The notes beneath the pieces were generated by a model that saw nothing but the letters and a program-made list of their open reading frames with translations, was not told the origin of the DNA and ran no database searches. A program made the translations under genes and the position numbers. This document shows, one piece after another, positions 687 through 37,507 of a DNA stretch of 64,000 nt. This DNA is from a virus. Position 1 is the stretch's first letter, and every line of letters starts with the position of its first letter. Location of the stretch: positions 62,001 to 126,000 of IMG/VR virus record IMGVR_UViG_3300045051_000978. The stretch is one strand, 5' to 3'.

Positions 687-933
687 GGTGATGCCTGGCG
701 CGTGCATTTCGGCAAACGAACTGAAGGTGCTTCACGCGGTTCGCGAGCTTCCGAACAAGTCCGCAGACTACATCAGTGCCGCGCTCGGCCTGAGTTCGCG
801 CAGGCTCAGCGCCACCCTGCGCAGGCTCAAAAACGACGGATTTGTAAGGATCAGGTACGCACCTATGTGCGTATACACTTTAACCGCGAAGGGCTTTTCT
901 GTCTGTGAGCACGCGCAAGCAAACCAAGACTGA
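670..933 (+). CDS. Small winged-helix DNA-binding protein
   Basis: 87 residues from ATG 670; ATG 691 is an alternative start. LKVLHAVRELPNKSADYIS, then SSRRLSATLRRLKNDGFV, then VYTLTAKG reads as a MarR/IclR-like winged helix with helix 2, recognition helix and wing. It overlaps the HNH gene upstream and TerL downstream. It may be a small-terminase-like DNA-binding subunit or a local regulator. A GTATAC site lies at 871. Confidence 0.6.
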   Translation: MTRRFEVMPGACISANELKVLHAVRELPNKSADYISAALGLSSRRLSATLRRLKNDGFVRIRYAPMCVYTLTAKGFSVCEHAQANQD

Positions 934-3037
934 GCGCGTCGATAGCGCAGCCGAAGACGTACTCCAGGGTGGGTCCAAGGACAGCGAGCTGAACGAGTAC
1001 GAGCGCAAGCTGTACGACGAACTCATCGAACGTTTACGGAATGGTGAATCCGACGTGATTGGGGATTTGTGGCGCTTGGACTACGTCAAACCGCCACCGG
1101 ACATTCGGAAATTCATCCTCGACGACTACTACGTAGGCGCAAGCCTCCGACCTATTCCGGGTGAAAACGAAGGCATCTGGCCTGCCTGGCTGGAAATCTT
1201 CACGAGGGACTTCGACCTAGACAGCTACATCCACAACCTGGTCATCACAGGATCACTCGGTATCGGCAAGACCTGGATGATGGTCACGGTGCTGCTGTAC
1301 CGCATTTGCATCGCGACGCACCTGAAGAACCCGCAGAACTTCTTCGGCATCAGCCGCGGGTCACGCATCATCTACAACTTCCTGTCCGTGACCAAGGAAG
1401 CGGTCCGCGACACGGCTTTCGGCGACGCCATGAACTTCATGGGCAGTTCGCCATACTTCCGCGAGGTGTGCGGCTTCGATCCAGACATGGACTACGCCGG
1501 GTTCCGCATCCCGATGCTGAACAGCCTACCTGGAGGCGGCACGTCGAACATCTACCTCACCGCCGGTTCCAAGGGTCAGCACATCCTTGGTCGTAACGTT
1601 GTCGGCGTGGGACTGGACGAAGGTAACTTCCGCCTGGAAAAAGACCCTGATCTGAAAGCGTACGTGCTCTATGACGCCGTGCGCACGCGTATCAGCAACC
1701 GCTTCCAGAAGCTGTCAACGTTTCTACCTGCCCTCTCTGTAATCGCGTCCTCGGCAGCAGACGAATCCAGTTTCACTGAAAAGGTCGTAGACGAAATAGA
1801 GAAGCAGAACGCGGCCCGCGATGCCGACAACGCAAAGCTGCCGCCTAGTCAGCACATACCCAAGACTCAGGTCGTTTACAGAAATGCCGTATACAAAATA
1901 AAACGGCACGCGCTTCAGGACATTGGCCCAAACCACCTCTGGTTCAAGGTCGCGTACGGGCTCAAGAACATGGAGCCCTACATCCTCACCGGCTGGTACC
2001 GTGAGGACGGAACACCGGTAGGCGACGAGTCCCACGAGGAACCACCGTCCGGCGCGAAAACGGAGCTGGTTCCGAAATTCTACTACGAGGCATACCGGCG
2101 CAACTGTCGCACGAACCTCCAGGCCCTGTCCGGCATCAGCGTCAGCGGCGCACACCGCCTGTTCGCCTCGATGGTGGATGTTGAGTGGTGCATCGCGCAG
2201 TCAGAAGCCGAGGGCGTTCCAAACTCCGTGCGCCCCGGCATCGAGCGCATGGCGATTTCCAACGAGGACGGCTCAAACATCTGGGATTTCCTCATCCACA
2301 AAAACTTCGTCCAACGTGTCGCCAGCCGCCACATTCCGAAAAGGCATCCTGATCGTTTACGATACGTGCACATCGACTTGGCTACGCAGAATCTGTGCGG
2401 CGTAGCCATCTGCCACCTGGTCGGCGCTCAGCTTGTTGAGGGCATCGTGAAGGAAGGAGGGCAACCATTCGACGAATACCGCTTGATCGTCGAGTACGAC
2501 TTCATCCTGACCATCTGCGCAGGTCAGAACAAACCCATCTCCATTGAGAAGGTGCAGAACTTCATCTTCTGGCTGCGTGATATATGCGGTTTCCGATTCG
2601 GAAAGGTAACTGCCGACATGTTCCAGTCCGAAAGCATGCTCCAGGCCCTCGACGCAAAGGGATTCGAGACGGACAAGCTCTCGCTGGACCGCGACAAGTC
2701 CGTCTACCATGCCTGGCGCTCTGGCTTCGAGGAGCGTCGAATTCGTTTACCGCGCAACGCCCAGATGATTCGAGAAGCCGAGGCCCTTCTCGAAATGGAC
2801 AAGAAATACGACCACCCACCGGACGGTTCAAAAGACACCACCGACGGCGCGGCCGGGGCCTACTACAACGCGATCACGTCTGAAGAGACGATGACCCTCA
2901 TGAGCGTCAATGCACCGACACTGGTCACGAATCGGCGCGCTGACGATCCGGAGGCGCAGCAGGTCGAGCGAGCGAAGGTACCTATCGAGACCGTTTTGCC
3001 GAAGGGGTACACCCGCGTGAAGAACTTCACTGCATGA
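905..3037 (+). CDS. terL: Terminase large subunit
   Basis: 710 residues from GTG 905, the phage DNA-packaging motor. Walker A is at about residues 115-123 (TGSLGIGKT) and a Walker B-like GVGLDEGNF is near 235. The C-terminal RNase H-like nuclease carries HIDLATQN near 490, TADMFQ near 567 and DTTDGAAGAYYN near 645, giving the expected acidic residues. It is longer than lambda- or T4-type TerL, with an N-terminal extension of about 100 residues. The start overlaps the preceding gene by 29 bp, and the stop overlaps the next ATG. Five GTTTAC sites lie within or beside it. Confidence 0.9.
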   Translation: MSTRKQTKTERVDSAAEDVLQGGSKDSELNEYERKLYDELIERLRNGESDVIGDLWRLDYVKPPPDIRKFILDDYYVGASLRPIPGENEGIWPAWLEIFTRDFDLDSYIHNLVITGSLGIGKTWMMVTVLLYRICIATHLKNPQNFFGISRGSRIIYNFLSVTKEAVRDTAFGDAMNFMGSSPYFREVCGFDPDMDYAGFRIPMLNSLPGGGTSNIYLTAGSKGQHILGRNVVGVGLDEGNFRLEKDPDLKAYVLYDAVRTRISNRFQKLSTFLPALSVIASSAADESSFTEKVVDEIEKQNAARDADNAKLPPSQHIPKTQVVYRNAVYKIKRHALQDIGPNHLWFKVAYGLKNMEPYILTGWYREDGTPVGDESHEEPPSGAKTELVPKFYYEAYRRNCRTNLQALSGISVSGAHRLFASMVDVEWCIAQSEAEGVPNSVRPGIERMAISNEDGSNIWDFLIHKNFVQRVASRHIPKRHPDRLRYVHIDLATQNLCGVAICHLVGAQLVEGIVKEGGQPFDEYRLIVEYDFILTICAGQNKPISIEKVQNFIFWLRDICGFRFGKVTADMFQSESMLQALDAKGFETDKLSLDRDKSVYHAWRSGFEERRIRLPRNAQMIREAEALLEMDKKYDHPPDGSKDTTDGAAGAYYNAITSEETMTLMSVNAPTLVTNRRADDPEAQQVERAKVPIETVLPKGYTRVKNFTA

Positions 3038-3396
3038 ACGCTCGACGCATCATCTCGACCCTCATCTTCTTTGCGCTGCTCGTCGTTTCCGTTTACACGC
3101 GAGCAGGTAAAATCGACCTGGAGTGGGATCACAGTCCAGACCCGCTGGTCGTCGGCTACCGCATTTACGCCGGCACGAACAGCGGCATGTACACGCAGAG
3201 CCAGACGGTCCCTCGAACCAACTGGACGACGTTTTCAAACCTGACCTACGCCGTGCGCTACTACTTTGTGGCAACCGCCTTCAACGCAGCCGGCGTCGAG
3301 AGCATTCCGTCGAACGAAGTCGCAGCCACCATAGGCCAGCCTCGCACGCCTTCCAACCTGGCACTCACCAACGCGCCGCCAAAACCCGGTACCTAA
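3034..3396 (+). CDS. Exported fibronectin-III-like protein A
   Basis: 120 residues. An N-terminal hydrophobic segment (about residues 6-22, IISTLIFFALLVVSV) looks like a Sec signal peptide or anchor. One FnIII-like module follows: LEWDHSPDPLVVGYRIYAG, then YYFVATAFNAAGVES, then SNEV. The start ATGA overlaps the TerL stop. An exported protein directly after TerL is odd, because phage FnIII domains usually sit in virion proteins without signal peptides. A surface role in the host is inferred. Confidence 0.75.
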   Translation: MNARRIISTLIFFALLVVSVYTRAGKIDLEWDHSPDPLVVGYRIYAGTNSGMYTQSQTVPRTNWTTFSNLTYAVRYYFVATAFNAAGVESIPSNEVAATIGQPRTPSNLALTNAPPKPGT

Positions 3397-3399
3397 GCT

Positions 3400-3723
3400 A
3401 TGAGGAAAACGCTCGCGCTCAGCTTTCTGGCCATCGTTGCCCTCACGTGCAGCGCCGGTCTGCGCGTCCGCTGGAAGGCCAATCCGGTAGAGGACAACGT
3501 GGTCGATTACCGCGTGTTCTGCGCCACAGGCGACACGCTGGTCTGGGTCAAATCCGCCGGCACAGCGACGCAGCTTGACCTCACGGGAACGGTACCTGAA
3601 GGACTGCTTCGACTCCACGTCACTGCCGTAGACGAAATCGGACTCGAAAGTCTGCCGTCTGCTCCAGCCTACTACACCAACAAGCGCCCCAGCCGGCCAA
3701 ACCTCAAGCAACCACAAGGCTGA
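3400..3723 (+). CDS. Exported fibronectin-III-like protein B
   Basis: 107 residues. The N-terminus MRKTLALSFLAIVALTCSAG is a typical signal peptide. One divergent FnIII-like sandwich follows: VRWKANPVEDNVVDYRVFC, then LRLHVTAVDEIGLESLPSAP. It is a paralogue of the preceding gene and of the proteins at 19766-20817. It ends in a basic, Pro-rich tail. Its stop overlaps the next ATG. Confidence 0.75.
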   Translation: MRKTLALSFLAIVALTCSAGLRVRWKANPVEDNVVDYRVFCATGDTLVWVKSAGTATQLDLTGTVPEGLLRLHVTAVDEIGLESLPSAPAYYTNKRPSRPNLKQPQG

Positions 3724-4304: not shown

Positions 4305-4625
4305 GTGGCAGGCCAACGCATCGAGCTTCCAAAGCACAGCATGTGGAGCGACACTCCCGTCTACGAAGTAGGCGGCGAGGTGGTGTTCGGGCTCCTCAAA
4401 GATTCTGTCGTTCCCGATGCTTCCGACGAGCTGTACGTCGTGCCTACGGCCGGTGCGGGCAGGCTGGACCTGATCTCTGACCACGCCTACGGCACGCCTG
4501 AACTGTGGTGGGTCATCGCCCGCGTCAACAACATCGCTGACCCGTTCATCGGACCATCAACCGCACAGGAGCTGCGCATCCCAACGCGTGCGCGCCTGGT
4601 CAACCTCGGACTTCTCCAGGTATGA
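4305..4625 (+). CDS. Baseplate wedge protein, gp53-like
   Basis: 106 residues from GTG 4305. The core YGTPELWWVIARVNNIADP followed by ELRIPTRARL is the signature of the T4 gp53/LysM-like baseplate wedge family, in which a short LysM-like fold ends in a conserved IP-R-L motif. It is evidence for a contractile tail. It is coupled to the next gene by an ATGA overlap. TAGTTAG lies 3 nt before the start codon. Confidence 0.8.
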   Translation: MAGQRIELPKHSMWSDTPVYEVGGEVVFGLLKDSVVPDASDELYVVPTAGAGRLDLISDHAYGTPELWWVIARVNNIADPFIGPSTAQELRIPTRARLVNLGLLQV

Positions 4626-18272: not shown

Positions 18273-18746
18273 ATGAAACTCAAGGTCATCATCAGCGGAG
18301 GGCAAACTGGAGCCGACCGCGCCGGTTTGGATTTTGCACGCGAAAACGGGATGTACCACGGCGGCTTTTGTCCGGCCGGCAGGCGTGCAGAAAACGGACG
18401 AATACCAGAACAGTACAAGCTGATCGAGCTGGACACGGACGACTACGCAGTGCGTACCGGCCTGAACGTGCTCATCAGCGACGCAACCGTGATCGTACAC
18501 GCCAACCCGATCACGCCTGGATCGGCGCTGACGATCCGCTGCTGTGAAGAAGCCAATCGGCCCTACCTGCTGATTCCTGTGAACATGGTTCCTCTGGAAG
18601 CAGCTTCAGCCCTCAGGAAATGGGTGTGGGCGCGAAATATCCGAGCGCTGAACGTGGCTGGCTCCCGCGAATCGCGCTGCCCAGGCGTCTACGCCTACAC
18701 GCTCGACATCCTCAATCGAGCGCACGCGATGGATCAGCCCGAATAG
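18273..18746 (+). CDS. SLOG/putative molybdenum-carrier-like protein
   Basis: 157 residues. IISGGQTGADRAGLDFA at the N-terminus, HGGFCPAGRRAENGRIPEQY, and RTGLNVLISDATVIVHAN match the putative molybdenum carrier family, a Rossmann-like SLOG member that binds nucleotide-like ligands. The SGGQTGAD loop is intact. SLOG domains are used as sensors or nucleotide hydrolases in phage-defence conflicts, so a signalling or nucleotide role is plausible. Confidence 0.8.
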   Translation: MKLKVIISGGQTGADRAGLDFARENGMYHGGFCPAGRRAENGRIPEQYKLIELDTDDYAVRTGLNVLISDATVIVHANPITPGSALTIRCCEEANRPYLLIPVNMVPLEAASALRKWVWARNIRALNVAGSRESRCPGVYAYTLDILNRAHAMDQPE

Positions 18747-19011: not shown

Positions 19012-19162
19012 AACGCGGACGCCCTGCGACCGCGCCCAAGAAACGCAGCCGCAGGGCTCCTTGCATGGCACTCAAACTCCCGCTTACGTCCTAACTACGT
19101 TGGAGCAAATCGTCAACAATTTGCTTGCACCACTACTGTTTTCGCGTATGCCCATGCCCTGC
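19012..19162. other. Intergenic region before the PEP-CTERM gene
   Basis: A hairpin with 8-bp arms GCCCTGCG/CGCAGGGC (about 19020-19060) lies after the upstream stop, but lacks a U-tract. A short inverted repeat GCAAAT/ATTTGC lies around 19101-19120. A weak candidate promoter (TTGCAC, 16 bp, TATGCC) ends 10 nt before ATG 19163. No other gene seen. Confidence 0.4.
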
Positions 19163-19798
19163 ATGAAGCACATTATCCTCAGCCTCCTGATGGCCGCGGC
19201 ATTCTCCGCCAACGCCTCCAACATCACCATCGACACGCTTCCGGCGACTTCCAACGTCGGACCGTTCTCGGACACCTCCATCGCAACCTGGGGCCAGACG
19301 TTCCGCTCTCCTGGAGCTGGCACGCTCGACCGGTTCCGGCTGTCGCTGGACATCGTCGAACCGGGCGAGTTCAAGTTCTACCTCAGCGAGTGGGCCGGCG
19401 ACCGAGCCACCGGAGTCCTGCTCTACGAGAGCATCCTGCTCAGCCCTTCCGCTGGCGATTTCCTCCTCGACGTTCAGCCGAACGTGGCGCTCAAGGCCAA
19501 CACCGACTACGTCGCGTTCGTAAACAATTCGGCGTTCAGGAACACCGGATTGCCCCTGAACGCCGGAATCGACACGGGTGCCAGCTACCTCGGCGGCAAC
19601 CTCTATTTCAACGACAACGGCACATCGTTTCCCGCCTTGTCCGTCTCATCCTGGATTGACGTTGGTCTCGACGCGGCTTTCCGCGCCGACATCACCGTCT
19701 CCACTGTCCCCGAATCCGGAAGCACGACGCTGTACGGTGCGATGGCCCTTGGTGTACTGGCCTGGCTACGGTTCCGTCGGAATCAGCAGCAGGTTTGA
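19163..19798 (+). CDS. Exported protein with PEP-CTERM-like sorting tail
   Basis: 211 residues from ATG 19163; in-frame ATGs exist at 19148 and 19154. MKHIILSLLMAAAFSANA is a signal peptide. The middle is a beta-sandwich-like domain (TWGQTFRSPGAGTLDRF...). The end VPESGSTTLYGAMALGVLA plus LRFRRN is a complete PEP-CTERM tripartite tail: VPE-x-GST motif, membrane helix, Arg cluster. In bacteria this tail is recognised by exosortase. This phage copy should be anchored or sorted in the host envelope. It is flanked by exported FnIII-like genes. Confidence 0.85.
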   Translation: MKHIILSLLMAAAFSANASNITIDTLPATSNVGPFSDTSIATWGQTFRSPGAGTLDRFRLSLDIVEPGEFKFYLSEWAGDRATGVLLYESILLSPSAGDFLLDVQPNVALKANTDYVAFVNNSAFRNTGLPLNAGIDTGASYLGGNLYFNDNGTSFPALSVSSWIDVGLDAAFRADITVSTVPESGSTTLYGAMALGVLAWLRFRRNQQQV

Positions 19799-20202: not shown

Positions 20203-20817
20203 TCAGTTGCGGCGCACGTTGACGGACGCCGGGATGCGGAGGTTGAGCGCAGCGCTCTGCGCGGACTCAAGGCTGTTCGTGCCGACGGCTGAAACCTGCA
20301 CGGCGTAGAGCACTCCGGGCACGAGGGACGGCAGATCGATCACCACAGGTGACGCTGTTCCACGTGGAACGGTGAGCATCAGCACGCCGTTCGTAGACAC
20401 CTTGAAACTGCCCACCGAGGTGTCGGCGTACGGAAACGTGACGCCAGCCTTACCGCGCCCACGGTTTGCTGCGGCAAGCGACACAGGAACCGCCGGAGGC
20501 TGCGGCGTTGCTACCGTCGCCGAAACTTCGTTCGAGAACTCCGACTCCAGCCCGGCCGAGTTGAACGCGGTGACTGCGAAGTAGGTGGTGATGTCGTAGA
20601 AGACGTTGGTGACTGTATACGTCGTCACCAAACCCAGCGTGACGGTGTTCGTGTAATTCCGAGAGGCCGTACCGTAGTAGACCTTGTACCCTGCCAGATC
20701 GGGCTCCGTGTTCGCGTCCCACGCGAGACCCACCGAGGCAGCATTGATTTTCGGGCCAATGAGAATGGCCACGAAAAGCGTAAACAACAGGACAACTTTG
20801 TTGGTAATGTTCTTCAT
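20203..20817 (-). CDS. Exported protein with FnIII-like modules
   Basis: 204 residues from ATG 20817. MKNITNKVVLLFTLFVAILI is a signal peptide with cleavage near INA. First module: VGLAWDANTEPDLAGYKVYYG, then FAVTAFNSAGLESEFSNEV, a canonical bacterial FnIII. A second, divergent module ends PGVLYAVQVSAVGTNSLES. It is the largest of four exported FnIII-like proteins in this window. Confidence 0.8.
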   Translation of the reverse strand: MKNITNKVVLLFTLFVAILIGPKINAASVGLAWDANTEPDLAGYKVYYGTASRNYTNTVTLGLVTTYTVTNVFYDITTYFAVTAFNSAGLESEFSNEVSATVATPQPPAVPVSLAAANRGRGKAGVTFPYADTSVGSFKVSTNGVLMLTVPRGTASPVVIDLPSLVPGVLYAVQVSAVGTNSLESAQSAALNLRIPASVNVRRN

Positions 20818-20823
20818 GGGCAA

Positions 20824-21807: not shown

Positions 21808-23157
21808 CTACGCATGGGGATCGGCCAAAACGCCAGTGGTAAACGTCTTCTCAACGCTGGTGCGCCCTTCGGAGTAGAGCGCCAGCGGAATGCGAAGCCC
21901 GACCGAGAACAGGTTCGCAAGGTCGTCCGTTTTGAGATTTTCGACGCGGCAGGACGTGATCGGACGCACACGTTCCAGCTGCGCAGACTGACGTTTACGC
22001 GCTTCCAGGTCGTCAGCGTCGAGCGGCTTGAGGGCGAACGGCTGCGAACTGCGAAGGCCCTCGGTAAGGCGAAAATCACCCACGCGAGCAATCTGGTCGA
22101 GGCAGGTCACTGCCAGCGCGTCGAGCCCGCCGTTTGTCTTGGCGACATCGATGCTGTACCGGAGGATGTCCAGGTTCCACCAGCCGCAGCGAAGCTTGCT
22201 CTGCCACGGATTCTCGGGGTTGTACTCGTCCGGCAGCGCCTGCGTAAGCAGATCATCCTGACCTACAAAAGGCCCGGCTCCGTGGCGTGTGGCGTAGGCG
22301 CGGATGACTCCGATGACCGTCCGTGGGCACCTGACCTCAGCTTCGTCCAGGACGACGTGCGCGTTGCGCGCCGTGGTGGTGGACCAAGTCGTGTACGGAT
22401 GGAATCCGTAATTCTCGTCGAGGAGAACGCCCTGGGCACCCTCCATGATCGCCGTATCGTACCGGTTGAGCAGCTCCGCAACCTCCATCGGATCGTTCAG
22501 GATCGTGACCTTCTGGCCCCAGGCCACGTAGCGCTGGACCAGGTCTGAAACAGGCACGTCCATGGTGCTCAACTCCTTGACAACGATCTTGTTGGTCAGA
22601 TCGAGCGGAAAGCGCCCCACAGTCTGCCGCATCACGGTTCGCAGGTGCTGAAGCTTGGTTTCAAGCAACTCAGGCTGAAGAACATCTTCGATCACCGGAG
22701 CCATGGTGAGCGCCGCGGTGGCGTAGGCGACCGTCTCGCCGATGCCCATACCGCAGCTGCCGTGCCGGTTGTCGCCGCGGGCCAGCTCGCGCAGCCGGTT
22801 GGCCATCCGGTGGTAGGGCGTGGTCATCAGGCACCGGCCGTCCACGTACATGCGGTTGAACGCTCCGGTGACGCCTTGCTTCACGAGGTGAGCTTCCTCG
22901 TGGACCATCGCCAGCGGGTTGACCAGACACGGCCCGGCCAGGAGCGTCCGGCACCCTGGAACAAACGTCCCTGAGCCGAACTGCGCGAAGCAGTGGTGCT
23001 TCCCTGAGATCGCATCGACGACGTTATGGCCGGCTTGGGCTCCTCCGTTGAAACGGACGACCAGCTCGGCTCCGTACCGGCGCACCAGGGCATCCACCAC
23101 GGTGCCCTTGCCGGAGTCTCCGTATCCCAGGTCAACGACGACGAACGCGTTTTTCAC
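21808..23157 (-). CDS. Divergent adenylosuccinate synthetase-like enzyme (PurA/PurZ family)
   Basis: 449 residues. The P-loop is GYGDSGKGTVVD, where E. coli PurA has GDEGKGK: the catalytic Asp is kept but the next Glu is Ser. AQAGHNVV keeps the His of PurA GHNAGH. RHGAGPF matches RVGAGPF. The guanine-specificity motif TKLD is TCLD here, so GTP preference may be lost. Phage PurZ enzymes make 2-aminoadenine precursors but replace the Asp with Ser, so this is not a typical PurZ. It is likely a purine nucleotide ligase acting on IMP or dGMP-like substrate. Confidence 0.8.
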   Translation of the reverse strand: MKNAFVVVDLGYGDSGKGTVVDALVRRYGAELVVRFNGGAQAGHNVVDAISGKHHCFAQFGSGTFVPGCRTLLAGPCLVNPLAMVHEEAHLVKQGVTGAFNRMYVDGRCLMTTPYHRMANRLRELARGDNRHGSCGMGIGETVAYATAALTMAPVIEDVLQPELLETKLQHLRTVMRQTVGRFPLDLTNKIVVKELSTMDVPVSDLVQRYVAWGQKVTILNDPMEVAELLNRYDTAIMEGAQGVLLDENYGFHPYTTWSTTTARNAHVVLDEAEVRCPRTVIGVIRAYATRHGAGPFVGQDDLLTQALPDEYNPENPWQSKLRCGWWNLDILRYSIDVAKTNGGLDALAVTCLDQIARVGDFRLTEGLRSSQPFALKPLDADDLEARKRQSAQLERVRPITSCRVENLKTDDLANLFSVGLRIPLALYSEGRTSVEKTFTTGVLADPHA

Positions 23158-36736: not shown

Positions 36737-37507
36737 GTGACCCTTTTCACGCCCATCTGCGAACGGTGTACCCTCTTGCCGTACTACCTCAGGTACTACC
36801 AACGCCTTGGGATCGATCAGTTTGTCCTGGCACTCTGGAACGGGCCGGACAATCCGGAGATCGAGGCCATCCGAGCGTTCAGCCAGGGCTACAACGTGAA
36901 GATCGAAACCTCCGTGCGCTGCGCGTATGAGGACTACTGCGGGCCGGCTGAGACGAATGGGCTGAACGACCTGCGCGAGCGCTACGTCCGCGCCGACGAG
37001 TGGTACGTCATCGCCGACCTGGACGAGTTCTGCTGGTTCGGTGGCTATCCTCTGACCGAGCTGCCCCGGATCGCCGAGGAACGGGGCTTCCTGGCCGTCC
37101 ACGGGCGTTTCCACGACCGCCTGGGTGAGAACGGCCGGCTCATGCCCGTGCCTGTCAACGGCAGCCTGGACAACACGTACCCGTGGCAGGTCTGGCTCAC
37201 CAACCGAACAGGAGCCTGCCACGACAAGGTCTGCCTGGCGCACAAGAGCGTCCCGATCCACAGCGGGCACCACGAGGCACCTGGCATCGAACGCAGCCAG
37301 CTCTGGCACGACCTTCTCGAAGTCCACCACTTCAAGTGGATCGCGGGCGTTCAGCACGTCCTGCGCGCCCGGCACAAGAACTACGTGCGTCAGGGGCACT
37401 ACTGGGCCAACGAAAGCCGGGATTTCCTCGGCATGCTGAAGGGCGACTGCTTCGACCTGTCCATCCCCGAGCTTGGGGCGCAGCGCGCTCGACGCCTGGG
37501 CATCTAG
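36737..37507 (+). CDS. Glycosyltransferase, family 2/92-like
   Basis: 256 residues from GTG 36737. LLPYYLRYYQRLGIDQFVLA at the N-terminus and VIADLDEFCWFGG with the DxD metal-binding motif mark a GT-A fold glycosyltransferase, as in the glycosyl transferase family 2_4/92. HGRFHDRLGE and a His-rich stretch follow. It is a + gene inserted among minus-strand tail genes. It may modify the phage fibre or host glycans. Confidence 0.75.
   Translation: MTLFTPICERCTLLPYYLRYYQRLGIDQFVLALWNGPDNPEIEAIRAFSQGYNVKIETSVRCAYEDYCGPAETNGLNDLRERYVRADEWYVIADLDEFCWFGGYPLTELPRIAEERGFLAVHGRFHDRLGENGRLMPVPVNGSLDNTYPWQVWLTNRTGACHDKVCLAHKSVPIHSGHHEAPGIERSQLWHDLLEVHHFKWIAGVQHVLRARHKNYVRQGHYWANESRDFLGMLKGDCFDLSIPELGAQRARRLGI

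Follow-up and report, generated by a model that had tools for sequence, protein, structure and literature searches.

A tailed-phage protein with a signal peptide and a PEP-CTERM-like tail nearest the VPDSG-CTERM variant

What is known of exosortase sorting comes mostly from comparative genomics and from work on flocs and biofilms, and the locus described here raises the question of whether a phage can encode a protein destined for such a pathway and, if so, what that protein might do. We analyzed a window of 64,000 nucleotides, bases 62,001-126,000 of a virus record of 126,921 bases, centering on P0001, the 211-aa product of the ORF at 19163-19798 on the + strand. Coordinates refer to the window unless otherwise stated, and the parts of the gene are as follows:

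19163..19216, + strand: predicted SPase I signal peptide MKHIILSLLMAAAFSANA, cut after ANA (judged by eye and with a crude hydropathy rule)
19217..19705, + strand: core of P0001, 163 aa, without Cys, rich in Ser/Thr/Asn, poor in Lys/Arg, no internal helix
19706..19726, + strand: VPESGST motif, PEP/VPDSG-like
19727..19768, + strand: short C-terminal hydrophobic helix TLYGAMALGVLAWL
19769..19795, + strand: basic cytoplasmic end RFRRNQQQV

The signal peptide, VPESGST motif, membrane helix and Arg-rich end named in the first-pass annotation are all present at exactly these positions, with MKHIILSLLMAAAFSANA at the N-terminus and VPESGST-TLYGAMALGVLAWL-RFRRNQQQV at the C-terminus. Since its codon usage follows that of the phage (score 59), the ORF is very probably coding; its GC3 is 0.81 compared to 0.75 in the phage. 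The start codon is uncertain: ATG occurs in frame at 19148, 19154 and 19163, and the longest ORF starts from a TTG at 19061. Compared to the phage proteome, the core has no Cys (0% vs 1.2%), more Ser (10.4% vs 6.3%), Thr (8.6% vs 6.7%) and Asn (6.7% vs 3.6%), and less Lys and Arg (4.9% vs 10.6% combined). By the hydropathy rule only, no further helix lies between the signal peptide and the tail helix. The hydrophobic stretch of the tail, TTLYGAMALGVLAWL, is short and only modestly hydrophobic (mean hydropathy 1.5), and AlphaFold2 run on the single P0001 sequence gave a pLDDT of 32.5.

PEP-CTERM proteins, as described by Haft et al. 2006 (PMC1569441), combine a motif, a helix and a basic end with a signal peptide and no helix between, and their cargo has few Cys and basic residues, abundant Thr, Ser and Asn, and little homology elsewhere. 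P0001 resembles this class (PF07589, TIGR02595) in its signal peptide, cargo composition, tripartite C-terminus and lack of an intervening helix, and its C-terminal helix is followed by a basic cluster (RFRR) at the very end, which is a PEP-CTERM feature. It agrees with the description of Haft et al. (PMC1569441) except in the exact motif and the model score, since PEP-CTERM tails have a near-invariant Pro-Glu-Pro, whereas P0001 has VPES, with Ser in place of the second Pro of PEP. This substitution need not abolish function because natural members of a phage PEP-CTERM family, at loci L239, L243 and L269, carry VPES as well. P0001 resembles VPDSG-CTERM (PF18205, TIGR03778) in its VP-acidic-SG motif, helix and basic end, although VPESGST has Glu for Asp and the tail scores under the 25-bit cut-off. 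The VPDSG-CTERM variant was reportedly described in Verrucomicrobia, and exosortase C is said to be its proposed partner. In GlyGly-CTERM tails a GlyGly motif precedes the helix, and in MYXO-CTERM tails a Cys does. The helix and basic end are also common to P0001 and the GlyGly-CTERM and MYXO-CTERM tails (TIGR03501, TIGR03382; PMC3237569), but the P0001 tail contains neither a GlyGly motif nor a Cys.

We then set P0001 against the curated models, for which the cut-offs are 20.7 bits for PF07589, 16 for TIGR02595, 25 for PF18205, 22 for TIGR03778, 15.85 for TIGR03382 and 15.5 for GlyGly-CTERM. The whole protein fell below every curated cut-off, whether for PEP-CTERM, VPDSG-CTERM or the other sorting models, and no VPDSG-CTERM match in the record exceeded its cut-off. 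When the tail was scanned alone, it matched sorting-tail models only, all weakly. VPDSG-CTERM was the best Pfam match (13.7 bits, E 0.058, covering positions 2-23 of 26), MYXO-CTERM gave 15.8 bits (E 0.016), GlyGly-CTERM 14.5 bits and PEP-CTERM QFxxD 13.8 bits, while PF07589 gave 7.0 bits. Trimming the tail raised MYXO-CTERM (TIGR03382) to 16.3 bits and GlyGly-CTERM to 16.0, both over their cut-offs, and these scores would favor a different C-terminal sorting enzyme, of the rhombosortase or MYXO-CTERM type, acting on the tail in place of an exosortase. We consider this improbable, since the cut-offs are reached on the trimmed sequence only, the GlyGly motif and the Cys of those tails are missing, and VPESG fits VPDSG/PEP. 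The weak GlyGly-CTERM and MYXO-CTERM scores can be attributed to the helix and basic end.

P0001 might be an ordinary exported single-pass inner-membrane protein with a positive-inside C-terminal anchor, one that carries VPESGST by coincidence and is not handled by any sorting enzyme. Accessory membrane proteins are common in phages, and the failure of P0001 to reach any curated cut-off is consistent with such a protein. We scanned 59 control tails, of which 22 were natural hydrophobic and basic ORF ends taken from phage records and the other 37 were scrambles. None of the 59 matched the VPDSG-CTERM, MYXO-CTERM, GlyGly-CTERM or PEP-CTERM models matched by P0001, and a single control matched another tail model, GPS-CTERM (E 0.0035). 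Profiles of our own were more divided. A first profile ranked P0001 first among 7,894 ORF ends, a partly circular result because three of its tails came from P0001 similarity or from beside such a match. P0001 was absent from the top matches of a profile built from 24 phage VPEP[ST]TW tails, ranked 18 of 7,894 when planctomycete tails plus two other bacterial tails were used, and ranked first (E 0.083) when the phage and bacterial sets were pooled. That profiles of canonical tails fail to single out P0001 again speaks for an ordinary membrane protein; the exclusive match of the tail to sorting-type models, unlike the natural ends and scrambles, and a core composition that fits PEP-CTERM cargo speak against it, and we regard it as unlikely, though still a serious contender. 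Taken together, the model, control and profile results suggest that the tail is of sorting type above chance, yet not canonical PEP-CTERM. We read the tail as one of the right architecture that has diverged too far for a model to call it PEP-CTERM. By these comparisons, P0001 is PEP-CTERM-like, nearest the VPDSG variant, and not a canonical PEP-CTERM member. The first-pass label of a PEP-CTERM-like exported protein thus holds as a resemblance, in signal peptide, tripartite tail, absence of a helix between and core composition, but not as membership by the curated models.

Searches with the core returned no relatives in phages, viral contigs, genome contigs or plasmids, and no Pfam, NCBIfam or PHROG model passed with the whole protein. 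Several candidates were examined and rejected: L294 is an argininosuccinate lyase matched at chance level; L138 is an exported protein whose core looks faintly similar, although the match is not significant when all 392 genomes are considered; and L140 has only a canonical PEP-CTERM tail in common with P0001. A possible likeness of the core pattern to that of a bacterial PEP-CTERM family was set aside, as no search bore it out.

The genomic setting of P0001 bears on whether it is a phage gene at all. The landmarks used here are as follows:

905..3037, + strand: terminase large subunit homologue, which marks the record as a tailed phage
18273..18746, + strand: cpYpsA SLOG-family protein, upstream neighbor of P0001
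19766..20200, - strand: predicted lipoprotein (MRFLPLVLLLMAVGC), convergent, with a 33-nt overlap with the 3' end of the P0001 gene
20203..20823, - strand: exported fibronectin type III (FN3) protein; phage record G004 holds a relative (58%)

The terminase large subunit has uncultivated relatives at 52-69% identity and distant relatives in many tailed phages, and 18 tRNAs are clustered at one end of the record; together these identify the record as a tailed phage. Another tRNA, with a CUA (amber) anticodon, lies away from this cluster (L002:16958-17031, - strand; record 36958-37031). It is called Pyl by ARAGORN and scores 45 bits with the Rfam tRNA model, and suppression of TAG by the phage through this tRNA is possible. 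We also observed an N-terminal tag like NARxIVNRLLEDD in 16 of the 151 predicted proteins of the record, compared to 1 of 279 internal blocks. The tagged proteins include those at window positions 4622, 9590, 13162, 13604, 16818, 39649, 39954, 42221, 43089, 45960 and 52342, with others in the record, and the tag is possibly a capsid- or virion-targeting signal.

Closer to P0001, an 85-aa ORF also lies upstream, and the gene adjoins those of two other exported proteins, the lipoprotein and the FN3 protein. An inverted repeat of 15 pairs with a loop of 6 is located inside the P0001 ORF at 19530-19565, with a T-containing tail beyond it on the - strand, and may mark the end of the - strand lipoprotein and FN3 transcript. 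The FN3 gene, tried as a clue to the host, matches many phyla. This phage encodes three small exported FN3-like proteins in all, at 3034-3396, 3400-3723 and 20203-20823; the first two directly follow the terminase, and relatives of the first and third occur in G004 (about 109 kb). Beyond the FN3 gene lie a sigma factor and then an adenylosuccinate synthetase homologue of PurA/PurZ type (21808-23157, - strand; GDSGKG motif), which has relatives in L012 and L013 and among Mycobacterium phage proteins that bear the annotation 2-aminooxy adenylosuccinate synthetase.

Compared to eight related phage records, 18.3-21.8 kb is accessory, with only the FN3 protein recurring (58%, G004), and no relative of P0001 was found in any of the eight. 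This lack of conservation (0 of 8 records) and of viral relatives would fit a chance pick-up of a host gene, an assembly chimera or a spurious ORF with no phage role. However, the ORF agrees with the phage in codon usage and GC, no host-like block surrounds it, and both flanks are phage, with the terminase side common to all TerL relatives and the genes at 24-27 kb common to G006, G007 and G008. We find such an origin very hard to credit.

The first-pass annotation had considered a phage copy of such a protein unexpected, which does not hold for viral contigs at large. When we searched these contigs with a DNA pattern for VPEP[ST]TWA[FL], all 30 stretches recovered were in-frame, true PEP-CTERM ends, and from these sequences it is beyond doubt that other phages encode PEP-CTERM proteins. 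Several of these have hallmark genes as neighbors: L158/L183 carry terminase, portal and major head protein, L155 has terminase and portal, and L172 encodes a virion structural protein. The cores of 17 of the 30 proteins form one cluster, and the core of P0001 is unrelated to these. One family within the cluster, queried with L158:10121-10783, has 60 loci with near-full-length matches on viral contigs (L214-L273 and L154-L183). PEP is kept in 45 of the 60, others carry VPES, VPEA or VPET in that position, and 12-14 of the 60 have portal and major head homologues no more than 2.5 kb away. No PHROG family matched this family, the largest phage PEP-CTERM family seen here. Its members are like P0001 in being phage-encoded, in their signal peptide, in their length of about 215 aa and in their natural VPES variants, and differ from it in their unrelated core, canonical tails, smaller phages and proximity to portal and head genes. 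A short-tail search of the phage collection, which had little power, found no match, and we found no description of phage-borne PEP-CTERM proteins in the literature searched. More interesting than P0001 itself is that canonical PEP-CTERM proteins recur in uncultivated phages.

Some of these phage proteins are very small. The 369-kb record L168 encodes two adjacent PEP-CTERM proteins (about 830-1815), one of only 75 aa, and L155 encodes one of about 52 aa (about 530-760). Both short proteins consist of a signal peptide and a tail with little between, and they are possible exosortase decoys. By analogy, P0001 could flood the host exosortase and thereby keep the host's own surface proteins from being sorted while the phage infects, but its 163-aa core would be superfluous in a decoy, and we give this role only a slim chance.

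Exosortase (PF09721) was not detected in the phage record or in 16 other phage records, so the enzyme, if one is used, presumably comes from the host, with the phage apparently contributing the substrate. As the first-pass annotation proposed, P0001 may point to a host with exosortase and to surface modification during infection. With close to even confidence, we favor P0001 being an exported phage accessory protein that uses host exosortase-type sorting to alter the surface of the infected cell. P0001 would be exported by Sec and its signal peptide cleaved, and the tail would hold it in the inner membrane, exposing the VPES motif on the periplasmic side. An exosortase-family enzyme of the host could then cut at VPES, and the core would be passed to the outer envelope or to the exopolysaccharide or matrix. 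The most likely purpose would be a changed surface of the infected cell, e.g., receptor masking, superinfection exclusion or altered matrix behavior.

We prefer host-dependent sorting because the tail matches only sorting models while none of the 59 controls does; because the core composition, the signal peptide and the absence of internal helices and of relatives fit PEP-CTERM (PMC1569441); because other phages encode PEP-CTERM proteins, as seen in the 30 pattern matches and in the 60-locus family with its VPES variants; and because the gene adjoins two exported-protein genes. Against it stand the missed curated cut-offs, the canonical-tail profiles that mostly miss P0001, the short hydrophobic stretch, the lack of a relative showing conservation of the tail, the failure to detect an exosortase in the phage record and the low pLDDT of the core.

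More tentatively, and with somewhat less than even confidence, we propose that phages of exosortase-bearing bacteria recurrently encode substrates for the host sorting enzyme and in this way dress the cell surface or matrix, with P0001 as a VPDSG-like case beside families of the L158 type. If this is true, the exosortase system would be a point of contact between phage and host, involved in surface remodeling, superinfection exclusion or escape from the matrix, and the phage genes would provide small, testable exosortase substrates.
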